Source: Pseudomonadota bacterium (GTDB lineage: Bacteria > Pseudomonadota > Gammaproteobacteria > Steroidobacterales > Steroidobacteraceae). From it: DNA of 26,685 nt. The stretch is taken from positions 1-26,685 of the forward strand of contig QGUX01000008.1 of assembly GCA_003242275.1 (NCBI GenBank). The letters run 5' to 3'. The notes beneath the pieces are model-generated. The model saw nothing but the letters and a program-made list of their open reading frames with translations, did no database searches and was not told the DNA's origin. The position numbers were made by a program, and so were the translations under genes. Positions 3 through 25,061 of this stretch are shown here, piece by piece. Every line of letters begins with the position of its first letter. The first letter of the stretch is position 1.

Positions 3-2531
3 GGCCACTTCCTGCAGCTGGACGACGGCGGCGTGGCCTACTCGGCCGACTTCGGTGACTACAGCGGCGACGACTACGTGAAGGGCGGCGCCGGTGACGA
101 CACCCTCGAGGGAGGCGCGGGCGACGACCGGCTGCTCGGCGGCGCGGGCGGCGACACGCTCGTGGGCGGTGCCGGCGCAGACTTCCTCGACGGTGGCGAG
201 GGCAGCGACACCTACCTGATCGCCCGGGATGACGTCGCCGACGGCGACGAGATCGCCGACGGCGGCACGGAAGGCACCGACGTGGTGCAGATCGTCGACA
301 GCGGCGACATCGATCTGACCGGAGTGTCGATCTCGGGCGTGGAAGAACTGCGGTTCTCGGCGGAAGGCAACGACCTGAAGCTGCACGCCGGCAAGGTCGA
401 CCTCGGCGCGATGGAGATCATCGGCAGCGACTTCAACGACTCGCTGGTGATCGAGTTCGGCGAGGACGGCGAGGCGGCGCTGGCCACCAGCGGCATCGAG
501 AACGTGCGCCTGCAGACCCGGGGCAGCAACAGCCTCGACATCGCGGGCGTGGCCGGCGCCACCGTCGCGGTGGAGGCCGGCGAGGCCACGGACGTGCTGG
601 CGCTCACCGGCGTGGCCGTCGACGTCGATGCCGGCACCTTTGCCGGCGAGCTGGACGTCGCCGGCGTCACCGGCGCGGGCTTCAAGGTCACCACCGGCAG
701 CAACCGCACCGGCGTCGCCGCCGACGACGGCCAGATCGAGGTCGCCGCGCAGAAGCTGGCCAATGACACCACGCTGGCGCTGGCCGGCAGCAGCCGCTTC
801 ACCGTGACCGGCCTGGTCGGCGACGTGGATGCCTCGGGTGCGTCCGGCGCCGTGGACATCACCACGGCCGACAACACCCAGGACGACGACATCAAGATCA
901 CCACCGGCAGCGGCGCGACCACCATCGACGGCAAGGGTGCCAACGACACCATCACGGTCCACGCCGGCGCACTGTCGGAGGACGAGCTGCTCACCCTCGA
1001 GGGCGCAAGCACCTTCGTGGTCGATGGCGTGGTTGCCGATGTCGATGCCGCCGGCCTCGCGGGCGCGTTGACGGTGGAGGTCGCCGATGCCGCGGACAAT
1101 GCGGTTTCGATAACCACAGGTTCCGCCAGCGCCACCGTGTCCGGCGCCGCGGCCGACGACAGAATCTCCATCGATGCGGCCAACCTGGCCGCGGAAGCCA
1201 CCCTGACGCTGTCCGGCGAGTCGGCCTTCACGGTCACCGGCCTGAAGGGGGACCTGGATGCCAGCGGGGCGACGGGATCGGTGAAGGTCGCGGCCGGGAG
1301 CGGCGGACAGCGGCTCATCGGCGGCGACGGTGACGATCACCTCTACGGCGGCGACGACGACGATACCGACCTGCTCATCGGCGGCCTGGGCTCCGACGTC
1401 GCGGTATTCGAGGGCAGCCGCGATGATTACGAGATCACCACCGACTGGATCACCGTCGATGGTGGAACCGAGGAGGTCCGCGTCCTCAAGGTCGAGAACA
1501 GGTCCAGCGGCTCGTTCGATTACGTGCACTCCAGCGTCGAGACGCTGGTGTTCACCAGCAACGTGGCCGGCTACCTGGCCAACCCGGATCCGGAAGCGCC
1601 CGGGGTCGAATCGTACTCCACCAGCGACTTCCGCACCGGCGTCATCCGCGAACTGGCTGCCGACAATACCGTGCTCGGGACCTATGACACCCTCGAGGAA
1701 GCCCTCGCCAGTGCCACGGCCGGCTCCCTCATCGAGATTGCGGACGGTGTCGACCTGAGGGAAGAGGGCGTGGTGACCGTTGGGGTCGAGGGCCTGACCA
1801 TCCGGGCCAGCGACACGGTGCAGATCACGGGGCTGAAGCTCGGCGAGGGGGTGAAGTCGCTGTACCTGGAGGGCAGCTTCAGCACCGAGATCGAGGGCAA
1901 CGACTGTGACAACCGCATCGTCGGCAACGACGGCGACAACGTCATCCGCGGCCTGGGCGGCAACGACTTCATCGACCTCGGGGGTCGCACCGGCCGCAAC
2001 GTGGTCGACGGCGGCGATGGCGATGACGTGATCGTCGGCGGCAAGGGCGATGACGTGCTCAGGGGCGGCACGGGCCACGACGTGATCGTCGCCACGGGTG
2101 GCGCCGACACGGTGCTGGGAGGCTCCGGCAACGACCGCATCGTGCTGGGCTCGACCGGCGGCGAGCGGGTGGTCGTGCAGGGCGGCAGCGGCGCCAACCA
2201 GTACATCATCGACAACTTCGGCGATGAAGAAGGCATCAACCTCAACGTGGTGATCACCGACTTCATCCGCGGCCTGGACCAGATCGACTTCAGCCACCTG
2301 CGGCTCGAGGGCCGGGAACTGACGCTGGCCGACCTGGGGTTCGAGCATCCGGCGGACGCGGTGATCGACCTCGGCGCCCTGGGGCTGGAGCAGGAGACCG
2401 GCGGGGAACCGCTGGCGGCGCAGGGCACGCTGACGTTGAGCATGATCAATGGCCTGCGCCTGACGGCGGACGACTTCGTGTTCGATCCCGGCGAAGCCTC
2501 GCCCTGGCAGGACCTGTTCCTGGCCGGCTGA
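3..2531 (+). CDS. RTX / hemolysin-type calcium-binding repeat protein, 5' end outside window
   Basis: The reading frame is open from the first bases, so the N-terminus lies upstream; the GTG at 33 is probably not the true start. Three blocks of glycine-aspartate nonapeptides (GGxGxDxLx type) are visible, around 81-225, 1305-1420 and 1898-2150. Such repeats form a calcium-binding parallel beta-roll, usually in proteins secreted by a type I system and folded outside the cell. Between blocks 1 and 2 lie about three and a third copies of a 67-72-residue module starting D-V/L-D-A. A beta-helix-like stretch follows near 1680-1900. The C-terminus (ITDFIRGLDQIDFSHL, ending in DLFLAG) resembles the end of RTX proteins, where an uncleaved secretion signal is expected. 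No catalytic motif is seen, so an adhesin or surface-layer role is as likely as an enzyme fused upstream. No type I transporter genes are in the window. Confidence 0.85.
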   Translation, partial: GHFLQLDDGGVAYSADFGDYSGDDYVKGGAGDDTLEGGAGDDRLLGGAGGDTLVGGAGADFLDGGEGSDTYLIARDDVADGDEIADGGTEGTDVVQIVDSGDIDLTGVSISGVEELRFSAEGNDLKLHAGKVDLGAMEIIGSDFNDSLVIEFGEDGEAALATSGIENVRLQTRGSNSLDIAGVAGATVAVEAGEATDVLALTGVAVDVDAGTFAGELDVAGVTGAGFKVTTGSNRTGVAADDGQIEVAAQKLANDTTLALAGSSRFTVTGLVGDVDASGASGAVDITTADNTQDDDIKITTGSGATTIDGKGANDTITVHAGALSEDELLTLEGASTFVVDGVVADVDAAGLAGALTVEVADAADNAVSITTGSASATVSGAAADDRISIDAANLAAEATLTLSGESAFTVTGLKGDLDASGATGSVKVAAGSGGQRLIGGDGDDHLYGGDDDDTDLLIGGLGSDVAVFEGSRDDYEITTDWITVDGGTEEVRVLKVENRSSGSFDYVHSSVETLVFTSNVAGYLANPDPEAPGVESYSTSDFRTGVIRELAADNTVLGTYDTLEEALASATAGSLIEIADGVDLREEGVVTVGVEGLTIRASDTVQITGLKLGEGVKSLYLEGSFSTEIEGNDCDNRIVGNDGDNVIRGLGGNDFIDLGGRTGRNVVDGGDGDDVIVGGKGDDVLRGGTGHDVIVATGGADTVLGGSGNDRIVLGSTGGERVVVQGGSGANQYIIDNFGDEEGINLNVVITDFIRGLDQIDFSHLRLEGRELTLADLGFEHPADAVIDLGALGLEQETGGEPLAAQGTLTLSMINGLRLTADDFVFDPGEASPWQDLFLAG
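621..1310 (+). repeat. Tandem ~70-residue modules inside the RTX protein
   Basis: Modules begin at the D-V/L-D-A codons at 621, 822, 1038 and 1251 (spacings 67, 72 and 71 codons); the last is cut short by RTX block 2. Shared features in order are an opening DVDA-x-G, an ITTGS or VTTGS segment mid-module, a following A-x-D-x-I strand, and a closing F-T/V-V-T/D-G strand. The DNA copies are diverged, so the repetition is old and protein-level. I do not recognise the module as a named domain; beta-strand-rich stacking is inferred from alternating hydrophobic residues. Confidence 0.75.
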
Positions 2532-2632: not shown

Positions 2633-3817
2633 TCAGCCGCCGCAGGACTCCTTCCACTGCTGCGCCTTTTCGATCATGGCGCTGTAGTCGCCCATCAGCG
2701 AGGACAGACGCTTGACCAGCCTGGACTTCAGGTCCTGCATCTTCTTTTCCTTCATGTCGGAGACCTTGGCCAGGTAACCGAAGGGCGCCGCGACCTTCCG
2801 GGATCCCAGGCTGACCGCGCTGGAATCGCCGTTGTACCAGTACTTGGCCCGGACGTGGAGCTTGATCCAGTTCCAGTTCGGGTCCCTGTCCTCCACCCGC
2901 ACGCAGGTCGCCACCTTGACGCTGCTGGTCAGGTTGATCTTCGGCATGCAGAGCTCGCCCTTCTCGGTGTCGCCGATGAAGTACTGGTACAGGTTCAGGG
3001 TCGTCCAGTTGTTGTCGCTGAACTTGAAGTAGGAGTTGTAGGACAGGTCGATGCCCTCGAGCTGGCCCAGCAGGAAGGGCTGATCCTTGCCCGTGGAAAC
3101 CACGTTCTTGGGGTAGATGGGGTACATGCGCAGGTCGGCGCGAAGCTGGATGGTGCGTTCCTTGCCGCCGAAGTCCTTCTTGTCCTTCTTGTGCAGGTGG
3201 AAGAGCGGATAGCCGTTGGTGCGGATCTGGTCCAGCTTCTCCTTCTTGTCCTGCAGGTCGGCCAGCAGGTGCACGAGCCGGCACGCCTTCCTCTTGGCTT
3301 CCTTGAACTTCGAGACCGTGTTGTTGTCGAGCTGGTCCAGGGCGGCCGCGAGCGCGGCGTCCTCGACGTTCTGGTTGCACCTGAGGAGGGCGATGTCCAG
3401 CTTGGTGCTGTCCTCGTCGGCGGCGGCCTTCGCCAGCTCCATGGCATTGGTCATGCTGAGCGTGACCTGGGGCGGCAGCTTGTCCTGGATCTTGCCCTCG
3501 GGCAGCGGCGAGGTGTATCCGGTCAGGTTGTAGGCCGTGTTGACCAGTTGCGTGCTGTCCTTGGCTGCCTTGTTGAGCTTCTCGAAGGTGTCGATGAACT
3601 CCTTGGCGTAATTCTTGTTGGTCGCCGATTCGATGTCCTTCTCTGCGCCGGAATTCTCGGTGTCGGCCCGATTGGCGAAGTTCGCGATCTTCGCCTTGAC
3701 GTCATCGAGGTTCACCGGGCAGCTGCCGGCGGGAAGCGCCGACGCCGGCGCCAGCCCGACGGCCAGCGCCACGGCGTACGCGGTTGCGTTCACGAGCTTG
3801 CGTTCATGCCTGGACAA
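2633..3817 (-). CDS. Secreted lysine-rich protein of unknown function, TTG start
   Basis: This gene encodes 394 residues that I do not recognise. A Sec signal peptide is visible: basic start (SRHERK), hydrophobic stretch (AYAVALAVGLAPA) and a likely cut after ASA near residue 27. The mature protein is rich in Lys, Asp and Asn, mostly helical in its first half (residues 35-210), and more beta-like and aromatic later (LYQYF, NWIKLHVRAKYWY). It has six cysteines, the last in the terminal ESCGG, suggesting disulfides in the periplasm or outside. The TTG start is chosen because a full AAGGAG lies 7 bases upstream; a GTG nine codons in would leave a poorer signal peptide. It lies 84 bases after the lipoprotein gene on the same strand and may be co-transcribed with it. 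Its lysine codons make it less G+C-rich than its neighbours. Confidence 0.75.
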   Translation of the reverse strand: MSRHERKLVNATAYAVALAVGLAPASALPAGSCPVNLDDVKAKIANFANRADTENSGAEKDIESATNKNYAKEFIDTFEKLNKAAKDSTQLVNTAYNLTGYTSPLPEGKIQDKLPPQVTLSMTNAMELAKAAADEDSTKLDIALLRCNQNVEDAALAAALDQLDNNTVSKFKEAKRKACRLVHLLADLQDKKEKLDQIRTNGYPLFHLHKKDKKDFGGKERTIQLRADLRMYPIYPKNVVSTGKDQPFLLGQLEGIDLSYNSYFKFSDNNWTTLNLYQYFIGDTEKGELCMPKINLTSSVKVATCVRVEDRDPNWNWIKLHVRAKYWYNGDSSAVSLGSRKVAAPFGYLAKVSDMKEKKMQDLKSRLVKRLSSLMGDYSAMIEKAQQWKESCGG

Positions 3818-3901: not shown

Positions 3902-5461
3902 TTACTGCGCGGCGCTGGCTTCTCGCCTGAGCAGGTCCTTCACGAGTCCGGAGACGTCCGGGATCCTGTGCAGGATCTTGCGGCGCTCGATCACGGCGTA
4001 TTCGGGCGTGTCGATGCTCATGGTGCGCATCGCCTCCAGCACGCGCCGCTCCTGCGAGCCGCGGAACACCTCCGGCTCGGACAGGATGCCCAGCACCAGT
4101 GTTTCCGAGGTCGCCACCTCCTCCCGCGAGGCGCCGAAGGCTCCGCCGACGCCCGGCACGCGCCGCAGGCCCACCTGTCCCGAGTCGTCATGCTTCTGGC
4201 TGCCGTTGGAGAGCTTACCCAGTACCACCGGCCTGCCGTAGGGAAAGTGGCCGGTCACGGCATAGCGGTTGGTCGACACGTTCAGGACCTGCGCATTCAT
4301 GCTCGGTTCGAGCGTCGCCACCGAGCTGAGCTCGAACTCGAGCCTGAGCCGCACGTAGGCAGGTGTGGCCAGCTCCGGCTGCACGCTCAGCACCGTACCA
4401 GTCTGGGCCGTGTGCTCCGAGGCGTCGCCGTACACGCCGCCCGACAGCAGGATCGTCAGGTCGGCGCCGTCGCGAAGTTCGGAGGATTCGCCGAGCGAGG
4501 CGATGACCGTCGGCGCGGCGTTCAGGTAGATGCTGCTGCGCAGGTTGACCGGCATGAAGCGCATGGCGTACTGGATGTCGGGAATCGACAGGTGGGGCTG
4601 CAGCAGCAGCTGGCGGGTGCGCATGACGTTCTCCCGCCGGCTTGCATCCTCGCCGTCGAACTCCTCGCCGATCTCGCGGATGCGCTCGTAGCGGTAGAAG
4701 TTGTCGCCCTCGCTGGCGCCAAGCCGGAAGACCAGGTCGTTGAAGAACCCCGAGCCGCGCGTGGTCGCATCCGAGGCGTAGTGGCGCACGAAGTACACGC
4801 TGAAGGTGATGTTCAGGTTGCTGCAGGCCGGCTCCTCGGCGCGATTGTCGGCGGTGCAGACCAGCGCCGCGTCGAAGCCCTCGCCGCCGGGCTCGTGCGG
4901 GATCACGCTCAGCGGCTGCGGATACGTGCCGTCCCCGGGCGAGTACACGGCGCGGATGAAGCGCGTGGCGGGGTCCTCGTCCTGGATCCGCGCGGCCTGC
5001 ATGGCGTCGAACAGCGTGCGCGCCACGGTCTCGGCGCCGCCGCGCAGCGCCGCGATGGCCGACAGCGCCCAGTACATGCTGCGGTCCTCGATCAGCGCCG
5101 CGTTCATGAACGCGACCTGCGCCTCGAAGAAGTTCCCCAGCTCCATTTCCGCCAGTCCCAGGCCCGCATAGGAGGGCGCGTGGTCGATGGAGAAGCGTGC
5201 CGCGCTCGAGAAGGCGGCACGGGCGAAAACGGTCCTGTGCTGGTCCAGCCGCTTGCCCTCCAGCAGCTCCAGGCCGTAGCGGAAATGGCCGCGCCAGTCG
5301 TAGCCCAGGTTCTGCATGGGCTCCGCCGGTTTCTCGTACCGCGGCATGCCACCGCAGCCTGACAGCGCCGCCACGGCGAGCAGCACGACGCCTCTGGACG
5401 GACGCGGATGGTCCGCGGCGGCGCGGGCGAAGCAGCGGAGGCGGGGCGGTGCGGAGCGCAT
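3902..5461 (-). CDS. Lipoprotein with TPR-like N-terminus and secretin-like C-terminal domain
   Basis: Starting at the ATG at 5461, the product is 519 residues. The start is supported by GAGG 9 bases upstream; in-frame ATGs at 5491 and 5536 would only lengthen the leader. A lipobox LSGC (Cys36) follows the hydrophobic run VVLLAVAA, so the protein should be lipidated and anchored in the outer membrane. Residues 58-150 are alpha-helical with TPR-like pairs (YAGLGLAEMELGNFFEAQVAF). Residues about 313-466 follow the order of the secretin C-terminal domain: GTVLSVQPEL, a strand pair VRLRLEFELSS, GRPVVLGKL, RRVPGVGGAFG, then LVLGILSEPEVF. These match the family's GT-L-v-P, G-vvlGGL, vPlLGdIP-LG-LF and LvifitP elements. 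If real, it could form an outer-membrane channel. It is shorter than type II or III secretins and lacks obvious N0-N3 domains. The fold assignment is inference from motif order. Confidence 0.65.
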   Translation of the reverse strand: MRSAPPRLRCFARAAADHPRPSRGVVLLAVAALSGCGGMPRYEKPAEPMQNLGYDWRGHFRYGLELLEGKRLDQHRTVFARAAFSSAARFSIDHAPSYAGLGLAEMELGNFFEAQVAFMNAALIEDRSMYWALSAIAALRGGAETVARTLFDAMQAARIQDEDPATRFIRAVYSPGDGTYPQPLSVIPHEPGGEGFDAALVCTADNRAEEPACSNLNITFSVYFVRHYASDATTRGSGFFNDLVFRLGASEGDNFYRYERIREIGEEFDGEDASRRENVMRTRQLLLQPHLSIPDIQYAMRFMPVNLRSSIYLNAAPTVIASLGESSELRDGADLTILLSGGVYGDASEHTAQTGTVLSVQPELATPAYVRLRLEFELSSVATLEPSMNAQVLNVSTNRYAVTGHFPYGRPVVLGKLSNGSQKHDDSGQVGLRRVPGVGGAFGASREEVATSETLVLGILSEPEVFRGSQERRVLEAMRTMSIDTPEYAVIERRKILHRIPDVSGLVKDLLRREASAAQ

Positions 5462-5624
5462 GAGGACGGACCTCGGGAATTCTGGAAGCATTCGTACGCC
5501 AAGATTCCCACAAGGCGCCGCCGTTCCCACCCCCATGGATATGGGGAGCGGGGAATGCCTGCCCGCCGCGCCGCCCCATCTTCATGGCGTACCGGCGAAG
5601 GGTGACGCTCCCTATGCTCCCTCC

Positions 5625-5648
5625 GGTCGCGCAGGCAGTTCCGCGACC
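5625..5648 (+). promoter_or_regulatory. Leader inverted repeat before the six-cysteine gene
   Basis: GGTCGCG and its complement CGCGACC flank a 10-base loop about 33 bases upstream of the Shine-Dalgarno of the gene starting at 5695. It could be a 5'-leader stem or an operator in the 233-base divergent gap (5462-5694). A weaker 6-bp repeat, CCCCAT/ATGGGG, lies at 5531-5546. No convincing -35/-10 pair was seen in the gap. Confidence 0.3.
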
Positions 5649-5694
5649 ACGGAAGGCGCCTGTGTACTGCAATCCACAGCGAGGAGACTTTCAT

Positions 5695-6207
5695 ATGAAG
5701 TACGTGATCCTGCCGGCGGTGATGCTTCTGGGCCTTGCAGCCATGCCTGCGCACGCGGCGAAGTACAAGTGCGGCTGCGAGGAAAGCGCCAAGGCGGGCC
5801 TGCAGCAGTCCAAGGACCCGAAGATCGAGTGCGTCGAAACCTACAAGGGCTACGACAAGCACGTTTCCATCCAGGAAAGCCACCTGAAGATCTACGTCGA
5901 CAGCAGCAACCTGGTGCAGGGCGACAAGGACGCGAACATCCGCTTCCGGCCGCGCGACGGCAAGTGCCTGGAGCGCGTCGCCGACGGCAACCAGGAGAAG
6001 GTCCTGTGGATGGGCTCACACTGCAGCAACAGTTCCTACAGGGACGTGGGCCAGTTCAAGCTGAAGGAATCGAAGGAGCAGGAAGGTCAATGGATGGCCA
6101 CCTACGAGGCCAGGACCAGTGGCAAGGACTACACCGGCTTCCTGATCTACGCCACCGGCAAGGACGGCAAGCGCTACATGCAGGCGGCCTGCCTCGAGAA
6201 CAAGTGA
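5695..6207 (+). CDS. Small secreted six-cysteine protein of unknown function
   Basis: This gene encodes 170 residues. The ATG at 5695 has GAGGAG 8 bases upstream; the longer in-frame start at 5584 would bury the signal peptide. The leader MKYVILPAVMLLGLAAMPAHA is a classic Sec signal with cleavage near residue 21-22. The mature part has Cys at 26, 28, 46, 91, 110 and 166, suggesting up to three disulfides, and is rich in Lys, Asp and Tyr. No family or catalytic motif is recognised. It is divergent from the secretin-like lipoprotein gene. Like the secreted protein at 2633-3817 it has a Sec signal and six cysteines, but I see no alignable similarity between the two. Its base composition is also lower in G+C than the signalling genes that follow. 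Confidence 0.8.
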   Translation: MKYVILPAVMLLGLAAMPAHAAKYKCGCEESAKAGLQQSKDPKIECVETYKGYDKHVSIQESHLKIYVDSSNLVQGDKDANIRFRPRDGKCLERVADGNQEKVLWMGSHCSNSSYRDVGQFKLKESKEQEGQWMATYEARTSGKDYTGFLIYATGKDGKRYMQAACLENK

Positions 6208-6232
6208 TTCCCGCAGGGCTGTTTTCCGCCGC

Positions 6233-6257
6233 GCACGCCCCGCTTGCCGGGGCGTGC
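6233..6257 (+). terminator. Stem-loop terminator after the six-cysteine gene
   Basis: A perfect 10-bp stem (GCACGCCCCG / CGGGGCGTGC) with a CTTGC loop lies 25 bases after the stop codon, followed by GTCTTCG. The T-tract is weak, but position and stem strength fit a transcription end. Confidence 0.6.
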
Positions 6258-6290
6258 GTCTTCGTGCGCGCGGCGGCAGTGCGTCGGGTT

Positions 6291-6307
6291 GGCGCACGCA
6301 GTGCGCC
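6291..6307. promoter_or_regulatory. Operator-like inverted repeat upstream of the response regulator
   Basis: GGCGCAC-GCA-GTGCGCC is a perfect 7-bp inverted repeat with a 3-base spacer, ending 57 bases before the GTG start at 6365. The size fits a binding site for a dimeric helix-turn-helix regulator, possibly the LuxR-type regulator encoded next to it. The binding protein is unknown. Confidence 0.4.
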
Positions 6308-6364
6308 TGGCTTAGTCTTTGCCGGCGCCGCATCCATGCGCGCGGCGACGAGGAACTGAAGTCC

Positions 6365-7051
6365 GTGAACACGCCGGAGAACAGCGGGGAAGCCGGGTAC
6401 GCACCGGTCCGCGTGTTGCTGCTGGAGGACGACACCCGCCTGCGCGAACGCTTCGCCGGCATCCTGCGCGGCTGGCCGGGGGCCGGGCTGGTAGCGGCCT
6501 GCGCCTGCCTGGCCGAGGCGCGGCAAGTGCTGCAGTCCGGCCCGGTGGACCTGCTGATGACCGACCTGCAGCTGCCCGACGGCCATGGCGTGGAGGCGAT
6601 CCGCCTGCTGCGCCAGCTCAATCCGGCGGCAGATTCGGTGGTGATCTCGGTGCTGGCGGACGAGGAAACCGTCATCGACGCCATCGAGGCGGGGGCCGTC
6701 GGCTACCTGCTGAAGGATGCCGGCCCCATCGAACTGATCGATGTCATCCGTGAGCTGCGGCAGGGACGCTCGCCCATCTCCTCGTCCATCGCGCGCATCC
6801 TGGTCCGCCGCCTGGGCGCCCGGGCCGCCGCGCCGAGCGAGGAGCCGCTGCTCACGCCGCGGGAGACCGAGATCCTCTGGGGCATCGCCAAGGGTTACAC
6901 CTACGCGGAGCTGGCCGAGCAGCTGGGCATCTCGCGCAACACCGTGCCGGGCTATATCAAGAACATCTACCGCAAGCTCGCGGCCAACAACCGTTCCGAG
7001 GCCGTGTTCGAGGCCACGCGCAGGGGATTGATCCGGATTGGATCAATCTGA
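6365..7051 (+). CDS. NarL/FixJ-family response regulator
   Basis: This 228-residue protein is a DNA-binding partner of a histidine kinase. The GTG at 6365 has GAGGAAC 9 bases upstream; the frame is open further up, but a longer form would add no conserved sequence. The receiver domain (residues 15-130) has the acidic pair Asp22-Asp23, phosphoacceptor Asp67 in LMTDLQLP, Ser95 and Lys117 in YLLKDA. A LuxR-type helix-turn-helix (about 155-215) begins LTPRETEIL and contains ELAEQLGISRNTV and IYRKL. The kinase gene begins about 90 bases downstream, so the two form a two-component pair. Target genes are unknown; nearby EAL and acetyl-CoA synthetase genes on the same strand are candidates by position only. 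Confidence 0.93.
   Translation: MNTPENSGEAGYAPVRVLLLEDDTRLRERFAGILRGWPGAGLVAACACLAEARQVLQSGPVDLLMTDLQLPDGHGVEAIRLLRQLNPAADSVVISVLADEETVIDAIEAGAVGYLLKDAGPIELIDVIRELRQGRSPISSSIARILVRRLGARAAAPSEEPLLTPRETEILWGIAKGYTYAELAEQLGISRNTVPGYIKNIYRKLAANNRSEAVFEATRRGLIRIGSI
7026..7048. promoter_or_regulatory. Inverted repeat at the 3' end of the response regulator gene
   Basis: GATTGATCC-GGATT-GGATCAATC is a perfect 9-bp inverted repeat with a 5-base loop, ending immediately before the TGA stop. It could be an operator upstream of the kinase gene or an attenuating stem in a shared transcript. Confidence 0.45.
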
Positions 7052-7070
7052 CCCGGCTGCATCCGGATTG
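7031..7070. repeat. ATCCGGATTG direct repeats, 30-base period
   Basis: ATCCGGATTG occurs at 7031-7040 and again at 7061-7070, exactly 30 bases (about three helical turns) apart. Each holds the palindrome ATCCGGAT, and a partial copy (AACCGGAC) follows at 7071. Same-face spacing upstream of the kinase gene suggests cooperative protein binding. Confidence 0.45.
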
Positions 7071-7143
7071 AACCGGACTCGGCCGGTCGACCCGCGTGCA
7101 ACCCTATCCTTGCCCCGCACAGAGGCAGGGATTCGACTCCATC

Positions 7144-9057
7144 ATGGCGGGCGGCGATGCAGGACGGCGGGCTCTCGCCGGCAGCGGACGGTGGGCCTGC
7201 AGGGCCGTCTGGACGGCGCTGTGGGGCGGCATCCTGCTGGCCGGTCTCTGGCCCTTCCTGGGCATGCCGCCCACGCCCCGCGCGCAGGCCATCGACCAGG
7301 TCGTGCACGTCGAAGCCGGGGGACAGGCTCCGGCAAGCCTGCCGATCGCCACGGTCGAGCGTGGCGGCACTTCGCATTTCCGCGTGCTGCTCGAGGTGAA
7401 CCGGACCGAGCGGCCGCTGTACCTGTTCGTGCCGCTGCTCAGCCAGCACGCCACGATCCACATGGAAGGCCGGCTGATCGCCGACAGCGACAACCGCACG
7501 GTGATGGAGGGCCTGGCATCGGGAACCTCCCTGCTGGCCGTGCTGCCGGAGGACCTGCTGGGCGCCGGGCCGCGCGCCATCGACATCCACCTGCAGGCCA
7601 CTGGCCTGCAGCGCGCCTACCTGTCGCGCCTGTACGTGGGTACCGCGGAGGAACTGGCCCCCTATTACCGCCTGAGCGTGCTGGTGCTGGAACACCTGCG
7701 CGCCATCACCGTGGGAGCCCAGCTGCTGATGGCGGTGCTCGCGCTGGTCATCTGGCTATACCGGCCCCGCGAGCCGCTGTTCCGCTGGCTGGTGGCACTG
7801 CTGGCGTTGTCGCTGGTCACCAGCATCCTGCAAGTCAGCGGCCTGGCAACTTCCGTCAACGGGATGGGAGCGCTGGCCCCGATGCTCGGATCATCGGCGT
7901 GCCTGATCCTCGTGATCGTGTCCCTGCTGCTCGGGGGAGCATCGCCGCCGCGCTGGCTGAAGCTGTCGGTCGTGGGCGTGCCGGCATTCAGCCTGCTGGT
8001 GGCGGCCGGCCCCCTGCCGTTGGCGCAGGTCGCCATGCTGGTCAACATCCCGATGAACGTGGCGGCCATGATGGCGAGCACGGCGATCATCTGCCGCGAG
8101 GCACTTTCCGGTGTGTCCCGCGACGCGTGCCTGCTGGTGGTGCCGGCCGGCCTGCTGGGACTGGCATGCGTCCATGACGTGCTGATGTTCTTCGGTGTCC
8201 TCGACCGGCCGCTGTTCCTCTCCATGTACTACCGGTCGATCTTCACCATCGGCATCGCCATGGTGCTCATGAGGCGCCTCGGTGACAGCCTGATGCAGCT
8301 CGACCAGTCCAACGACCGCCTGCGCCGCGCGCTGGCCGACCGCGAGGCAGAGCTGGAACGGATGCACGAGGAGGACCGGCGCAAGGCGGCCGAGCAAGCC
8401 TTGCACGAGGAGCGCCAGCGTCTGGTCATGGACCTGCACGACGGACTGAGTGGCCATCTCGCATCCATCATCGCCCAGTCCGAGGAGGCCGGCGTTGCCG
8501 GTATCGAGAGCACGGCGCGGGAGGCCCTGGACGACCTGCGTCTGGTGATCCACTCCCTCGACATTGGCGACGGGGAACTGCGGGTCGCCCTCTCGAGCCT
8601 GCGGGAAAGGCTGGAGCGGCAACTGCACCGCATCGGTGTGGAGCTGGAGTGGTCGACCGCGCGCCTGCCTGAAGTCGGGGGCGTGACGCCCACGCACGCC
8701 CTGAACGTGCTGCGCATCGTCCAGGAGGCCGTCACCAACGCCATCCGCCATGGCGGGGCACGCCACATCCGGGTGGCCGGCAGCAGGTCGCCGGAAGGGT
8801 GCGCCTGCCTGTGTGTCGAGAACGACGGCGTGCCCTTCTCGTGCTCGGAGCTAGCTGGCAATGGCCTGGCCAACATGCAGCGGCGCGTGGCGCAGCTTGG
8901 GGGCGAGATCCACATCGAGGCCATGCCGACCGGGACCCGGGTGCTGCTGCTGCTGCCGCTGACGCTGTCGCCCGCGGACGATGCGGCCGTCGATATGCGA
9001 AACGAGGTTGGCGCGAACCACGCTTTGGGCCTGCACCTGTTGCGCAACGCCAGTTGA
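7144..9057 (+). CDS. 7TMR-DISM-like sensor histidine kinase, HisKA_3/DesK type
   Basis: From the ATG at 7144 the product is 637 residues; an in-frame GTG at 7096 is the alternative, and neither has an ideal Shine-Dalgarno (GGCAGGG lies 13 bases before the ATG). An N-terminal membrane segment (about 20-40) is followed by about 150 periplasmic residues of beta character, then seven membrane helices (about 180-380), as in 7TMR-DISM receptors that sense extracellular small molecules. A charged coiled coil (LDQSNDRLRRALADREAEL) leads into the dimerisation domain with phospho-His432 in DLHDGLSGHL. The ATPase domain has the N-box EAVTNAIRHGG and G-box GNGLANM. The kinase should phosphorylate the adjacent NarL-type regulator. 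The ligand cannot be read from sequence; carbohydrate or carboxylate sensing is the family precedent. Confidence 0.9.
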   Translation: MAGGDAGRRALAGSGRWACRAVWTALWGGILLAGLWPFLGMPPTPRAQAIDQVVHVEAGGQAPASLPIATVERGGTSHFRVLLEVNRTERPLYLFVPLLSQHATIHMEGRLIADSDNRTVMEGLASGTSLLAVLPEDLLGAGPRAIDIHLQATGLQRAYLSRLYVGTAEELAPYYRLSVLVLEHLRAITVGAQLLMAVLALVIWLYRPREPLFRWLVALLALSLVTSILQVSGLATSVNGMGALAPMLGSSACLILVIVSLLLGGASPPRWLKLSVVGVPAFSLLVAAGPLPLAQVAMLVNIPMNVAAMMASTAIICREALSGVSRDACLLVVPAGLLGLACVHDVLMFFGVLDRPLFLSMYYRSIFTIGIAMVLMRRLGDSLMQLDQSNDRLRRALADREAELERMHEEDRRKAAEQALHEERQRLVMDLHDGLSGHLASIIAQSEEAGVAGIESTAREALDDLRLVIHSLDIGDGELRVALSSLRERLERQLHRIGVELEWSTARLPEVGGVTPTHALNVLRIVQEAVTNAIRHGGARHIRVAGSRSPEGCACLCVENDGVPFSCSELAGNGLANMQRRVAQLGGEIHIEAMPTGTRVLLLLPLTLSPADDAAVDMRNEVGANHALGLHLLRNAS

Positions 9058-9152
9058 CGCCCGGTTTGCCGGAATGGCGGGATGGGTTCGAATTGAACTC
9101 AACTGCCGCCCGGAGCGCGCGTCCGCAGTCAAGATGTCGCGAGGAAACAGGG

Positions 9153-10046
9153 GTGGTCGATATGCAATCGATGCTGAAGAAACAGCTCCAGCGGGCGTTC
9201 CAGCTCGGAGAGCTCGAGGTTCACTACCAGCCCAAGTTCCATTTGGCGACGGGGGGGCTGCATGGCGTGGAAGCGCTGCTGCGGTGGCGCACCGTCAGCG
9301 GCCAGTGGATCGCCCCGGCCACCTTCGTGCCGGTGCTCGAGGACACGGGCCTGATCGACGACGTGGGCATCTGGCTGTTCCAGCGCACGGCGGCGGATGC
9401 GGCATACTGGCGCTGCCAGGGCTGCGACGTGGGCCGTGTGGCCATCAACGTCTCGCCGCTGCAGCTTCGCCGGGCCGGCTTCCTCGACTGGGTGCTCGCC
9501 ATCAGCAGTTCCTGGAGCGAGTGGGGCGCGAGCCTGGAACTCGAACTGACCGAATCGTCCCTGCTGCCGGATCCGGCGGCCATGGTGGAGCCGATGAACG
9601 CGCTTGCCGCCGCGAACGTGCGCTTCGCGCTGGATGACTTCGGCATGGGTTATTCCTCGCTCGAGCTGCTGACGCAGCTTCCGGCGAGCTACCTGAAGAT
9701 CGACCGCAAGTTCGTCGGGCAGATGCTGGACAACGGCAAGTCGGCGGCCGTGGTCAAGGCCATCGTGCGCCTGGCGCGGGAGACCGGCCTTGAGACCATC
9801 GCCGAGGGAATCGAGACCCTGGCGCAGCTCAAGCAGCTTCAATCCATTGGTTGCGACATCGGCCAGGGCCACTATTTCTGCGCGGCCCTCGACCGGGACG
9901 CGTTGCTGGAATTCCTCCGGGCCGGCAATCCTGGCGCGATGCCGTCCGTGGCACCTGGGGACGAGGCGGGGGTCTCTTCCCCGCTCCAGGGCATCCCGAT
10001 GCGTCCCGTGCCGCCGGCCCCGCAACCGCGCTCCCGGTTGAACTGA
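9153..10046 (+). CDS. Stand-alone EAL-domain c-di-GMP phosphodiesterase
   Basis: The protein has about 297 residues. GTG 9153 has GAGGAA 6 bases upstream; ATG 9162, three codons later, has AGGGG 8 bases upstream, and either may be used. Almost the whole protein is one EAL domain, which cleaves c-di-GMP to pGpG. The residues needed for activity are present: EALLRW signature, Asn in INVSPLQL, Glu in ELTESSLL, the Asp pair in [10 protein letters not shown], Lys and Asp in LKIDRKFV, Glu in IAEGIET and Gln in GQGHYF. No N-terminal sensory domain or membrane helix exists, so control must come from expression or a partner. The C-terminal 40 residues are proline-rich and unrelated to the domain. It follows the kinase gene by 95 bases on the same strand, so it may be an output of that system. 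Confidence 0.92.
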
Positions 10047-12227: not shown

Positions 12228-13172
12228 TCAGTTCGCCGGCCGCCGATCCGCCTCGGTGCCCGTGGCTCCGCCGCGGAAGCTCGACTGCAGCAGGTGCGTC
12301 AGCGTGTGCACGTAGCGCAGCTTGCCGTTCTCGACCCGGAACAGGTGCGTGTCGGCCGCGCCGCTGCTGTTCGGGCCGCCGCCGAAGTTGCACCACACCA
12401 CCACCATGCCCAGCACCTCGTCGACCACGAACTGGCGGTTGGCAATGTTCACGCCGGCGGGCATGCCGGCCTCGCAGGTGTCGTCGTCGCGGCCGCGGCC
12501 GGTGGTCATGCCGCCCTCGACGCGCACGCAGGGATAGCCCCAGGGCACCAGGTCCACCTTGCCCTCGAGGAAGGCGTCCATGTAGGCATTGGCGGCGTAG
12601 ATGAGGTCGCCATACGGCGTGCGCTTGTCCGCCGGGATCGGGCCCCAGTTCTCCTGCGAGGAATAGTTCAGGTAGTTGTCGGCGTTGAACAGCCAGTAGC
12701 CCGTGGTGGTCCAGATCACCTTGATCTCGGCGATCTTGTCGTGGTTCACGCGCAGCGTGACGCCGGCGACATAGGGCTCTTTCTCGTCCGTGACGATGAT
12801 CTCGGTGAAGGTCTGGCAGCTCCTGTCGTCGTACATGCTCATGTGCCGGTCGATCTTCAGCGGCTTGGTCAGGAAGCCCGTCTTCACGTCGCCGGGCTTC
12901 AGGTTCTCGCTGTAGAGCATGCTGTTCGCCAGCGGCAGGCCGGAAATGTCGCCCTTGGTCTGTGCCTCAAGGTACAGCCGCACCGCGTGCTGCAGGCCGC
13001 CGCGCTGGCAGGACACCGTCGGCCGCTGCGCGGCCTGGACGCGGCCCTCGTTGGCTCCGGGGCCGATGCCGCCCTGCTGGGGGGCCGGGGGCTGGGCGGC
13101 GCCGGCCACCGTGGCGGCAAGCAGGGCGCCGCACAGCGCGGCCGCGGTGGTGATCAGGTTGGTGCGTTTCAC
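12228..13172 (-). CDS. Secreted NTF2-like (DUF8021-like) protein of unknown function
   Basis: This gene encodes about 314 residues. I chose the GTG at 13172 because GGAGGG lies 9 bases upstream of it; the ATG at 13181 directly abuts that Shine-Dalgarno. A Sec signal peptide (KRTNLITTAAALCGALLAATVAGA) precedes a Gln/Pro/Gly-rich linker. The body appears to hold two alpha+beta-barrel units: residues about 65-165 (LYLEAQTKGD to EIKVIWT) and about 195-300 (AANAYMDAFLEGK to LRYVHTLTH), the pattern of SnoaL/NTF2 folds. The ending HLFRVENGKLRYVHTLTH resembles DUF8021 proteins known mostly from fungi, but that is recall, not a search. Four to five cysteines could pair in the periplasm. The gene follows the two Tat-SDR genes by 51 bases on the same strand, so it may bind or isomerise their product. 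Confidence 0.6.
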   Translation of the reverse strand: MKRTNLITTAAALCGALLAATVAGAAQPPAPQQGGIGPGANEGRVQAAQRPTVSCQRGGLQHAVRLYLEAQTKGDISGLPLANSMLYSENLKPGDVKTGFLTKPLKIDRHMSMYDDRSCQTFTEIIVTDEKEPYVAGVTLRVNHDKIAEIKVIWTTTGYWLFNADNYLNYSSQENWGPIPADKRTPYGDLIYAANAYMDAFLEGKVDLVPWGYPCVRVEGGMTTGRGRDDDTCEAGMPAGVNIANRQFVVDEVLGMVVVWCNFGGGPNSSGAADTHLFRVENGKLRYVHTLTHLLQSSFRGGATGTEADRRPAN

Positions 13173-13181
13173 AGGACTCAT

Positions 13182-13187
13182 CCCTCC
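13182..13187 (-). promoter_or_regulatory. Ribosome binding site deciding a GTG start
   Basis: GGAGGG on the minus strand lies 9 bases before GTG 13172 but directly touches ATG 13181. Spacing favours the GTG. Confidence 0.6.
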
Positions 13188-13223
13188 ATTGGTTCGGTGA
13201 CTTGCGGGGTTCACTCGCCGGGT

Positions 13224-22092: not shown

Positions 22093-23679
22093 ATGGGGCG
22101 CGCCGTCGACACCACCTTTGAAAGACGTCTGGCCGCGCTGGTCAATTCCCGTGAACCCGGGGTTCTCCAGGGCGGCCTGAAGGGCGTCGAGCGCGAGGCC
22201 CTGCGCGTCACGCCCGGGGGCCGCATCGCCCACACCCCGCACCCGGAGGCCCTGGGCTCGGCGCTGGCCAGCGAGCACATCACCACCGACTTCTCCGAGG
22301 CGCTGATCGAGCTGGTCACGCCGGCCTTCCGCCACAGCTGGGAGCTGCTGCAGTACCTGTGCGACCTGCACCAGTTCGTGCACCGCCACCTGGGCGAGGA
22401 GGTGCTGTGGGTCAATTCGATGCCCTGCCCGCTGGCCGGCGACGACGACGTGCCCACGGCCCGCTACGGCAGCTCGCACGTGGGCATGATGAAGTACGTG
22501 TACCGCGAGGGCCTGAGGCACCGCTACGGTGCGCTGATGCAGGCCATCTCCGGCGTGCACTTCAACTATTCCTTCGCGCCGCGGTTCTGGGAGGTGTACG
22601 CGGCCATCACGGAGCAGCGTGGCGGCAACACGCAGGAGTTCCGCTCGGCGCGCTACTTCGACCTCGTCCGCAACTACCGCCGCCTGTCGTGGATCGTGCT
22701 GTACCTGTTCGGTGCCTCGCCGGCGGTGGGCCGCGACTTCCTGGACGGGCACACCGACGGCCTGGTGATGCTGGACGACCGCGTCGCCGCGGGACCGTAC
22801 GCCACCTCGCTGCGCATGAGCGACATCGGCTACCGCAATCGCAACCAGGCCGGCATCAGCGTGTCGGCCAACAGCCTCGAGGAGTACCTGCGCGACCTGC
22901 GGCACGCGGTGACCACGCCGCACCCGGAGTACCAGAAGCTCGGCATCAAGCGCGACGGCCGCTGGATCCAGCTCAACACCAACCGGCTGCAGATCGAGAA
23001 CGAGTACTACAGCGCCATCCGTCCCAAGCGCGTGGCGCGCTCGGGCGAGAGCCCGAGCAGCGCGCTGCGCCGGGGCGGCGTCGAGTACATCGAGATGCGG
23101 GCGCTGGACTGCTCGGCCACCGATCCCATGGGCGTGAACGGCAACAAGGTGCGCTTCCTCGAGGCCTTCGCGGCGCTGTGCCTGCTGAAGTCGAGCCCGC
23201 CCATCGGCAGCTCGGAACAGGAGGCCATCGACGAGAACTTCCTCAAGGTGGCCAGGCGCGGGCGCGAGCCGGGCCTGAACCTGCGCCGCGACGGCCGCCA
23301 GCTGCCGCTGGCCTCGTGGGCGGCGGAGATCCTCGACTGCATGACCGGCCTGTGCGAGCTGCTCGACGAGGGTGACCCGGCGAAGCCGTATTCCGCGGCG
23401 CTGCGCACGCAGCAGGAGAAGGTGGCGGACGCGGCGCGCACGCCGTCGGCGCGCCTGCTGTCCGCGCTGGAATCCGGCGGCGAGGACTTCTTCACGATGA
23501 CGCTGCGCATGTCGCGCGAGCACCAGGAGTATTTCCGCTCGCTGCCGCTGCCGAACGAGGCGCGGCTGGCGGAGTTCGAGGGCGAGGCGCGCGAGTCGCA
23601 CGCCCGGCAGGCGGCGATCGAGGCCTCCCAGACCGGAACCTTCGAGGACTACCTGGCGGACTGGTTCGCGCGCATCTGA
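22093..23679 (+). CDS. gshA: Glutamate-cysteine ligase, group 1
   Basis: This 528-residue enzyme joins glutamate and cysteine with ATP, the committed step of glutathione synthesis in the cytoplasm. It aligns from memory with E. coli GshA (518 residues) through KGVEREALRV, HPEALGSAL, ITTDFSEALIELVTP, SMPCPL, YREGLRHRYGALMQAISGVHFNYS, YLFGASPAV, LQIENEYYSAIRPKR, SGESPSSAL and GGVEYIEMRALD, which cover the nucleotide, metal and substrate sites. This form is typical of gammaproteobacteria. gshB is not in the window. The ATG at 22093 lacks a clear Shine-Dalgarno. The 3' end overlaps the convergent protease gene by 31 bases. Confidence 0.96.
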   Translation: MGRAVDTTFERRLAALVNSREPGVLQGGLKGVEREALRVTPGGRIAHTPHPEALGSALASEHITTDFSEALIELVTPAFRHSWELLQYLCDLHQFVHRHLGEEVLWVNSMPCPLAGDDDVPTARYGSSHVGMMKYVYREGLRHRYGALMQAISGVHFNYSFAPRFWEVYAAITEQRGGNTQEFRSARYFDLVRNYRRLSWIVLYLFGASPAVGRDFLDGHTDGLVMLDDRVAAGPYATSLRMSDIGYRNRNQAGISVSANSLEEYLRDLRHAVTTPHPEYQKLGIKRDGRWIQLNTNRLQIENEYYSAIRPKRVARSGESPSSALRRGGVEYIEMRALDCSATDPMGVNGNKVRFLEAFAALCLLKSSPPIGSSEQEAIDENFLKVARRGREPGLNLRRDGRQLPLASWAAEILDCMTGLCELLDEGDPAKPYSAALRTQQEKVADAARTPSARLLSALESGGEDFFTMTLRMSREHQEYFRSLPLPNEARLAEFEGEARESHARQAAIEASQTGTFEDYLADWFARI

Positions 23680-24977
23680 AATGTGCGGCAGCGGGCGCGG
23701 TACAGCGCCATCAGTCCCAGCAGCGCCAGTGCCGTGCCGGCCAGCGCGCCGCCGCCTCCGCCGACGTCCACCGGTGCGCCTCCGCCGACGTCCACCGGTG
23801 GCGTCAGGCAGGAGGCGGCCTCGATGCGCGGCATCATCTGCGCGATGCTGCAGGCGGAGAACTGCTGGCTGCCGTTGATGCGCGGCCCCATCAGGAAGCT
23901 GTTGCTGCTGACATCGGCGCACGCGCCTTCCTCGTCGCCGTCGTGCGGCGCGCCGATGACGTGCGCGATCTCGTGCGCGGCGATCAGCGCGGCGAAGGTG
24001 GGTGCGGTGCGCGCCTCGGAAAGGCTGGCGCTGTAGCGCCGGCTGCACAGCTTGTCGAGATAGGCCAGTCCCACCGTGCGGCGATCGATGTCGCGGCCGG
24101 TGAACAGGTGCGTCAGCGCCGACTGGCGCTGCGCGACATTGCCTGCGCGCCACGCCGACAGCTGGTCGAGCAGGCGGCTGGCGTCGGTGGTGCCGCTGAG
24201 CGGGTCTTCCTCGCGGCGGGTGAAGGTGGTGATGCTGGCGGAGGTCACCTCCAGGCCGAGCTGGTTGCGGTACAGCCCGTCGATGATGTTGAGCTGCGCC
24301 AGCAGGTGGGATTCGAGGAATTCTCCCTCGCGGGCGGCGAGGAAGTGGTCGGCCACCATCGCCACGGCCAGGCGGTGCGTGGGGCCGTCGTCGAACGTGA
24401 GCGCGGTTGGGGTGAGGCCGGTGACCAGCTCCTGGCCGTTGCCCGGCGGCGCATGCAGCACATCGCCCTCGAAGGAGACATCGTCCCAGACCACATCGCT
24501 GAGCCGGAACACCATGGGTTGCCCGGGCGGTGCGCCGGCGAGCGCCTGGTGCCCCGTGTCGGCCAGCGCCGTGGCGGCCTCGATGCCGTAGTACTCCTCG
24601 CCATCGAACCAGATGCCGCTCCAGCCCCGGCGCGTGCGGGTCAGGGCCGCCCACGAGCCAGGGCGGCCGGGCACTGTACCCGCATAGGCCTCCGCCTCGC
24701 CCTCGGCGACGCCGAAGGCGCCCAGCACGCGGTGCGGCGCCAGTTCCAGCACGGCAGTGCCGGTGCGCGTGCCGATTTCAAGGCGCAGCGGACCGGCGGC
24801 CAGGGCATCGCCGACGCCGGCCGCCGGCGAGGCGCGCACCACGCCGGCATCCACGTCCAGCAGGTGCACGTCGGCGGCATTCGCCGGCCCACCGGCCATG
24901 CCCAGGAGCAGCACGCAAACGAGGCGTGCCAGACCGCTTCGCCAGCCATACGCACCAGCTTTGCGCGCACCGTTCAT
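23649..24977 (-). CDS. Secreted M12-like metzincin protease with GlyGly-CTERM-like tail
   Basis: This 442-residue protein starts at ATG 24977, with GGGG 7 bases upstream (a GTG at 25013 is the alternative). A Sec signal (LARLVCVLLLGMAGGPANA, cut near residue 35) precedes a propeptide-like beta region resembling reprolysin prodomains. The zinc site is HEIAHVIGAPHD (His335, Glu336, His339, His345), with a likely Met-turn at Met363 in SFLMGPR, as in ADAM-type metzincins. Paired cysteines (311, 353, 376, 390) fit an extracellular fold. The tail is a doubled PVDVGGG linker (394-408), one membrane helix (about 408-425) and arginines, the layout of GlyGly-CTERM sorting signals cut by rhombosortase after type II secretion. 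A further tail of about 12 residues overlaps gshA, longer than usual after such a signal. Confidence 0.88.
   Translation of the reverse strand: MNGARKAGAYGWRSGLARLVCVLLLGMAGGPANAADVHLLDVDAGVVRASPAAGVGDALAAGPLRLEIGTRTGTAVLELAPHRVLGAFGVAEGEAEAYAGTVPGRPGSWAALTRTRRGWSGIWFDGEEYYGIEAATALADTGHQALAGAPPGQPMVFRLSDVVWDDVSFEGDVLHAPPGNGQELVTGLTPTALTFDDGPTHRLAVAMVADHFLAAREGEFLESHLLAQLNIIDGLYRNQLGLEVTSASITTFTRREEDPLSGTTDASRLLDQLSAWRAGNVAQRQSALTHLFTGRDIDRRTVGLAYLDKLCSRRYSASLSEARTAPTFAALIAAHEIAHVIGAPHDGDEEGACADVSSNSFLMGPRINGSQQFSACSIAQMMPRIEAASCLTPPVDVGGGAPVDVGGGGGALAGTALALLGLMALYRARCRTFQMRANQSAR
23754..23800. repeat. Tandem 24-base repeat encoding PVDVGGG twice
   Basis: A 23-base unit at 23754-23776 recurs identically at 23778-23800 (period 24). 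It encodes the doubled PVDVGGG linker of the metalloprotease just before its membrane helix. The perfect in-frame duplication suggests recent slippage and a length-variable spacer. Confidence 0.85.
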
Positions 24978-25061
24978 CGCGGTGCCCCGTATTGGTGCAG
25001 CTTCAGTGGACACTGGGGGCCGGAAGGCTGCGGACCCCCCGGTTTGGCGCTAGGATGGCTG

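Follow-up and report, generated by a model that had tools for sequence, protein, structure and literature searches.

A predicted lipoprotein joining a TPR domain to a secretin barrel domain is encoded beside putative exported proteins in a Steroidobacteraceae genome

Results

The TPR-secretin and its locus

We analyzed positions 1 to 26,685 of contig QGUX01000008.1 (assembly GCA_003242275.1), from a member of the gammaproteobacterial family Steroidobacteraceae; this whole stretch of 26,685 nucleotides is referred to here as the window. On its minus strand, reading from 5461 to 3902, lies a gene for a predicted lipoprotein, here called the pore or TPR-secretin, in which a tetratricopeptide repeat (TPR) domain is joined directly to a complete secretin barrel domain (Table 1). 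The chain begins with the lipid anchor, followed by the TPR, the secretin domain and the tail. TPR and secretin share a single open reading frame (ORF) in the window, and the fusion is kept across the family. A first, sequence-only reading had described a lipoprotein with a TPR-like front and a secretin-like barrel, a description that the profile, fold and neighborhood evidence bears out.

Table 1. Coordinates of the TPR-secretin gene, its parts and associated features in the window
Feature	Position	Strand	Remarks
394-amino-acid (394-aa) partner with six invariant Cys and a signal peptide judged by eye	2633..3817	-	conserved neighbor in 6/6 related loci
TPR-secretin lipoprotein gene	3902..5461	-	519 aa
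Tail at the C terminus in the S-domain position, helical in part, with a conserved RRK..H..P motif	3905..4072	-	alignment and model
Secretin barrel domain, residues about 217-459	4085..4813	-	PF00263 and profile-profile match
TPR domain, residues about 54-176	4934..5302	-	
Lipoprotein signal peptide, lipobox LSGC, Cys36	5354..5461	-	pattern scan
Dyad CCCCATGGATATGGGG, candidate site for the regulator in the intergenic region of the divergent pore and six-Cys genes	5531..5546	.	suggestive; fails matrix test
Second dyad CCCCATCTTCATGGCG, same intergenic region	5574..5589	.	suggestive; fails matrix test
Six-Cys protein of 170 aa, signal peptide judged by eye	5695..6207	+	family adjoins subfamily-2 TPR-secretins
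LuxR-type response regulator, start codon uncertain	6287..7051	+	PF00072 and PF00196
Histidine kinase	7144..9057	+	HATPase_c; HisKA_3 below cutoff

The barrel assignment rests on several comparisons. Pfam Secretin (PF00263) matched residues 315 to 457 of the window pore with 33.5 bits, against a curated cutoff of 27.5, and matched 26 of 26 family members at E values of up to 1. A pore profile built from ten proteins of three subfamilies was compared with ten other secretins from the relatives' genomes and aligned with residues 357 to 621 of the GspD-like L038 (probability, 97.7; E value, 2.5e-12). This match runs from the first barrel strand onward, pointing to a complete barrel domain, whose N-terminal boundary in the window pore (about residue 217) was taken from the ten-protein alignment. 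The profile of subfamily 1 alone (A1) scored 96.0 over the second half only, and the barrel half of the pore by itself reached 97.5; the control values were 0.12 for the 394-aa partner family, 0.15 for the six-Cys family and 0.04 for the TPR half. All 40 Foldseek matches to the PDB with E values of ≤0.001 were chains of secretin-containing complexes. The proline ahead of the last strand (P494 of L029) is invariant in ten proteins of three subfamilies. For the equivalog of the type II secretion system (T2SS) secretin GspD (TIGR02517), the window pore scored 16.1 bits, below the cutoff of 351.

The lipobox pattern was matched in 24 of the 26 members, the other two beginning late in the alignment, and R493, R494 and P501 of the tail are invariant in all 26 aligned. 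No N0-N3 type domain (Secretin_N or STN) was detected among the Pfam matches of any of the 26 members at E values of up to 1, and none had been evident from the sequence alone. Judged by its domain, the pore belongs to the secretin superfamily; judged by architecture and context, it appears not to be a T2SS, type III secretion system (T3SS), pilus or Tad secretin.

Predicted exported proteins encoded beside the pore

A genome scan yielded six subfamily-1 loci, namely, L001, L002 and L006 (Rhodobiaceae/Parvibaculum), L003 (Tistrella), L004 (Alishewanella) and L005 (Aliidiomarina), of which L001 and L002 are near-duplicates. Conserved partners were present in this neighborhood survey: a homologue of the 394-aa protein adjoins the pore in all six loci and is 48 to 53% identical to that of the window in the five loci aligned. 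The gene order is partner to pore in the relatives and pore to partner in the window. Partner signal peptides were judged by eye, and the lipobox scan also matched 4 of 26 partner proteins. Six cysteines, one of them soon after the signal peptide, are invariant in the 26 aligned members, with 51% mean column identity and 51 invariant columns. The partner model shows long helices around a beta domain, and fold searches gave no known fold. In Tistrella L003 (7171-9872), two partner copies lie in tandem with a dyad near the start of each, and in Parvibaculum indicum L006 (9860-11803), the pore gene is split by an ORF judged by eye to be transposase-like, with the partner ORF intact. A distant homologue of 522 aa, exported as judged by eye, is encoded at 7249-8817 of L050, in a genome without a TPR-secretin match.

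Of 289 genomes (40 + 246 + 3) searched for both, the partner and the subfamily-1 pore occurred in the same 7, one pore being broken; three further genomes held a divergent pore only, with no partner match. Since six of the seven were seed genomes of the scan and only G1020 was new, this mainly shows that neither gene stands alone in the remaining genomes. The distribution is sporadic, with the partner in 3/40, 2/246 and 2/3 genomes. It was present in 2 of 398 genomes of a phylum-wide sample (the center genome G001 and one distant match) and in 1 of 369 of a class sample, this being the center genome G002 itself. Among protein-database clusters, 19 of 54 pore clusters equaled one of 87 partner clusters in the length of the longest contig; in 2,000 trials with jittered lengths, the number averaged 0.26 and never exceeded 3.

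Other subfamilies have other partners. The divergent subfamily-2 pores L029, L030 and L031, which come from three genomes in the same order as G004, adjoin homologues of the window's 170-aa protein that are 47 to 50% identical, with six cysteines invariant in the four sequences. Within that order, the six-Cys family was confined to the three genomes with L029 to L031 out of 40 searched; because the query alignment was built from these and the window, it is the other 37 that are informative. At L030 (5228-6424, minus strand), a gene for a DsbA-like thioredoxin-fold protein adjoins the six-Cys gene, which fits a disulfide-rich partner. In the subfamily-3 locus L032, the pore adjoins a predicted exported protein of 143 aa. 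The 143-aa, 394-aa and six-Cys partners had no detectable mutual similarity (pairwise profile probabilities, 1.7, 3.3 and 1.9), and in the window, a subfamily-1 pore has partners of both the 394-aa and six-Cys kinds nearby. The pore belongs to a sparse proteobacterial family of at least three subfamilies, each adjoining a predicted exported protein.

Such linkage would also be expected if the exported partner were a periplasmic subunit, i.e., a plug, gatekeeper or adaptor replacing N0-N3, with the pore passing other cargo or taking something up. Subfamily-1 pore and partner keep together in the six fetched loci and the same seven genomes like subunits of one machine, the partner is well conserved, and the long helices of its model could span a vestibule. 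However, three families without detectable similarity occupy the partner's place, and Tistrella has two tandem copies, both of which suit cargo better; a distant partner homologue in a genome without a pore match also speaks against a subunit. We consider this explanation rather unlikely.

A two-component system and shared dyads

Homologues of the window's response regulator and kinase are present in five of the six subfamily-1 loci, in L032 and in L033, and not in the Alishewanella locus. In the four loci compared, regulators are 43 to 67% identical to that of the window, and kinases are 26 to 47% identical to the window kinase over the alignment. An EAL-domain protein follows in the window (8799-10046, plus strand), its listed ORF overlapping the kinase gene at the latter's 3' end.

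A 16-bp dyad, TACC-N8-GGTA, first spotted by eye in five sites, is common to these relatives. Ten exact copies were found in six loci with two-component genes, every one upstream of a regulator or partner gene, and none in the four loci without such genes (L004 and L029 to L031), the scan leaving out L002; shuffles of four loci gave an expectation of 0.20 to 0.35 per locus. The gap from dyad to gene, by subtraction from ORF starts, is 52 to 93 bp; for one L003 partner, the listed ORF starts 2 bp past the site, and an internal ATG was assumed. L006 and L033 are closely related to L001 and L003, which leaves as independent new sites the two in L032 and that of the regulator in L003. The window has three dyads of another form, CCAT-N4-ATGG, two of them in the region that separates the divergent pore and six-Cys genes. 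Two that close occurred in 1 of 400 simulated windows, for a form picked after the fact, and the number of perfect dyads in the window is ordinary. The recognition helix of the regulator reads TVPGY in the window versus TVPVH in the four others, a change that would fit an altered candidate site.

The recurrence of a kinase and regulator, in five of six fetched subfamily-1 loci and the subfamily-3 locus, could mean that there is no channel and that the secretin-derived domain is a surface or periplasmic scaffold, for example, the signal receptor of the kinase; the weak resemblance of the barrel to T2SS secretins (TIGR02517) would agree with this. Against it stand the alignment to secretins over the domain's whole length, the invariant last-strand proline, and the occurrence of pore and partner without a nearby kinase in the three subfamily-2 loci and the Alishewanella locus. 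We regard a scaffold as very improbable.

Wider neighborhood

Besides the pore, Pfam scans of 19 window proteins and 30 flanking proteins from L001, L003, L004, L005 and L032, some ORFs being unscanned, detected no T2SS, T3SS, pilus or Tad part (ATPase, platform or pilin), as the sequence-only reading had noted for the adjacent genes. Flanks differ between loci: a major facilitator superfamily transporter and an HlyD-type protein lie just past the pore gene in L001, and L032 has a phage-type integrase. In the window, an RTX protein with six Pfam RTX stretches (33-2531, plus strand) is convergent with the 394-aa gene and has no homologue in the related loci. A Reprolysin-like metalloprotease (23649-25013, minus strand) ends in a glycine-rich, hydrophobic and basic C terminus, which we take to resemble a GlyGly-CTERM sorting tail, and a 328-aa protein, exported as judged by eye (12228-13214, minus strand), had no Pfam match at E values of up to 1e-5.

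Discussion

Well-studied secretins work with an inner-membrane machine. With GspD, PilQ and RcpA, the secretins of the T2SS, type IV pilus and Tad systems, the window pore has the barrel domain in common from the first strand onward; unlike them, it carries a TPR domain in the place of N0-N3 and has no inner-membrane machine among its scanned neighbors. HxcQ, reportedly presented by Viarre and colleagues in 2009 as a self-piloting liposecretin, is similar in that the secretin is itself a lipoprotein; it is part of a T2SS and, to our knowledge, has no TPR domain. The compact secretin pIV of phage f1 (7ofh) gave a weak profile match (E value, 0.07) and a fold match (E value, 4.1e-5) and is, as far as we know, not a TPR lipoprotein. 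A scan of a viral collection found no relative of the window pore.

Excerpts of a review describe well-studied secretins as reaching the outer membrane with the help of a separate pilotin, through a lipid of their own or along general pathways, many systems needing no pilotin because the secretin is a lipoprotein or general pathways serve (PMC4471445). In the available parts of the primary reports, TadD, Tgl/PilF/PilW and Y4yS are outer-membrane TPR lipoproteins (predicted for Y4yS) that aid secretin assembly or abundance (PMC10499894, PMC10653833, PMC4500985). RcpA assembly needs TadD, which binds the last four residues of RcpA (PMC10499894), and Tgl and its kin have been modeled on the unfolded beta-lip of PilQ (PMC10653833). 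These factors are proteins separate from the secretin, whereas the window protein has both in one chain. No description of such a TPR-secretin fusion was found in the available portions of the literature searched.

The most likely interpretation, whose chances we put at about even, is that the pore combines a secretin and a TadD/Tgl-like pilotin in one protein and releases the exported protein encoded with it. By virtue of its lipid anchor, the pore would travel to the outer membrane along the lipoprotein route, and its TPR domain would help the barrel segment and the tail in cis, as TadD and Tgl do in trans for RcpA and PilQ. We infer this self-piloting and self-assembly because lipid and TPR are on the pore chain and a conserved tail follows the barrel. 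About a dozen copies may then form a secretin ring. Without the N0-N3 stack by which other secretins are coupled to an inner-membrane machine, the ring would release the Sec-exported, presumably disulfide-bonded protein or proteins encoded with it, i.e., the 394-aa protein and, in the window, probably also the 170-aa six-Cys protein; release is suggested because the exported neighbors are exchangeable. The adjacent two-component system, where present, might switch on the partner and thereby the pore. The sequence-only reading had proposed a self-piloting outer-membrane channel for unknown cargo. Self-piloting fits the lipobox and the TPR assembly factors TadD and Tgl/PilF as the available parts of their reports describe them (PMC10499894, PMC10653833), the cargo is narrowed to the co-encoded exported proteins, and channel and transport are presumed.

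Several observations weigh against release by a self-piloting pore. The predicted barrel is of low confidence (10-residue means mostly 30 to 75) and superposes poorly (template modeling score, about 0.2; root mean square deviation, 17 to 34). The profile alignment covers the whole barrel domain, but the paired-hairpin fold is not evident in the model itself. The core module encodes no energy source, which all secretin machines we know of have. In L031, ExbB, ExbD and TonB genes (4806-7117, plus strand) are about 2.3 kb away from the pore gene, and in L029 the distance to ExbD and TonB genes is about 7.8 kb; the L031 set might reflect chance synteny or supply energy, and a proton-driven helper could act in both loci. 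The window has no exact TACC-N8-GGTA copy and fails the matrix test. The distant 394-aa relative (profile probability, 99.6) belongs to one genome without a TPR-secretin match.

Help from a pilus or Tad system in trans is also possible because every one of the nine host genomes has at least one other secretin. The TPR-secretin could then serve a pilus, Tad or T2SS machine, whose genes lie in another part of the genome, as an additional channel through the outer membrane. We find this improbable, given that no coupling-type N-terminal domain was detected, that no gene of such a machine was among the scanned neighbors, that GspD was over the cutoff in three of the nine genomes and in none of the other six, and that the distribution is sporadic.

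A conserved family with a TPR pilotin-like domain and a secretin in one chain, one exported partner and no machine found alongside would make directly testable both the action of TPR pilotins on the barrel and the ability of a secretin to release protein without a motor. The position of its relatives next to an exported-protein gene in unrelated bacteria may point to a small system for protein release not described before. More tentatively, and with some doubt, we suggest a minimal secretin-based secretion system: a self-piloting pore lipoprotein with one exchangeable exported partner, no dedicated inner-membrane motor and often its own two-component switch, scattered as a compact module in proteobacteria.
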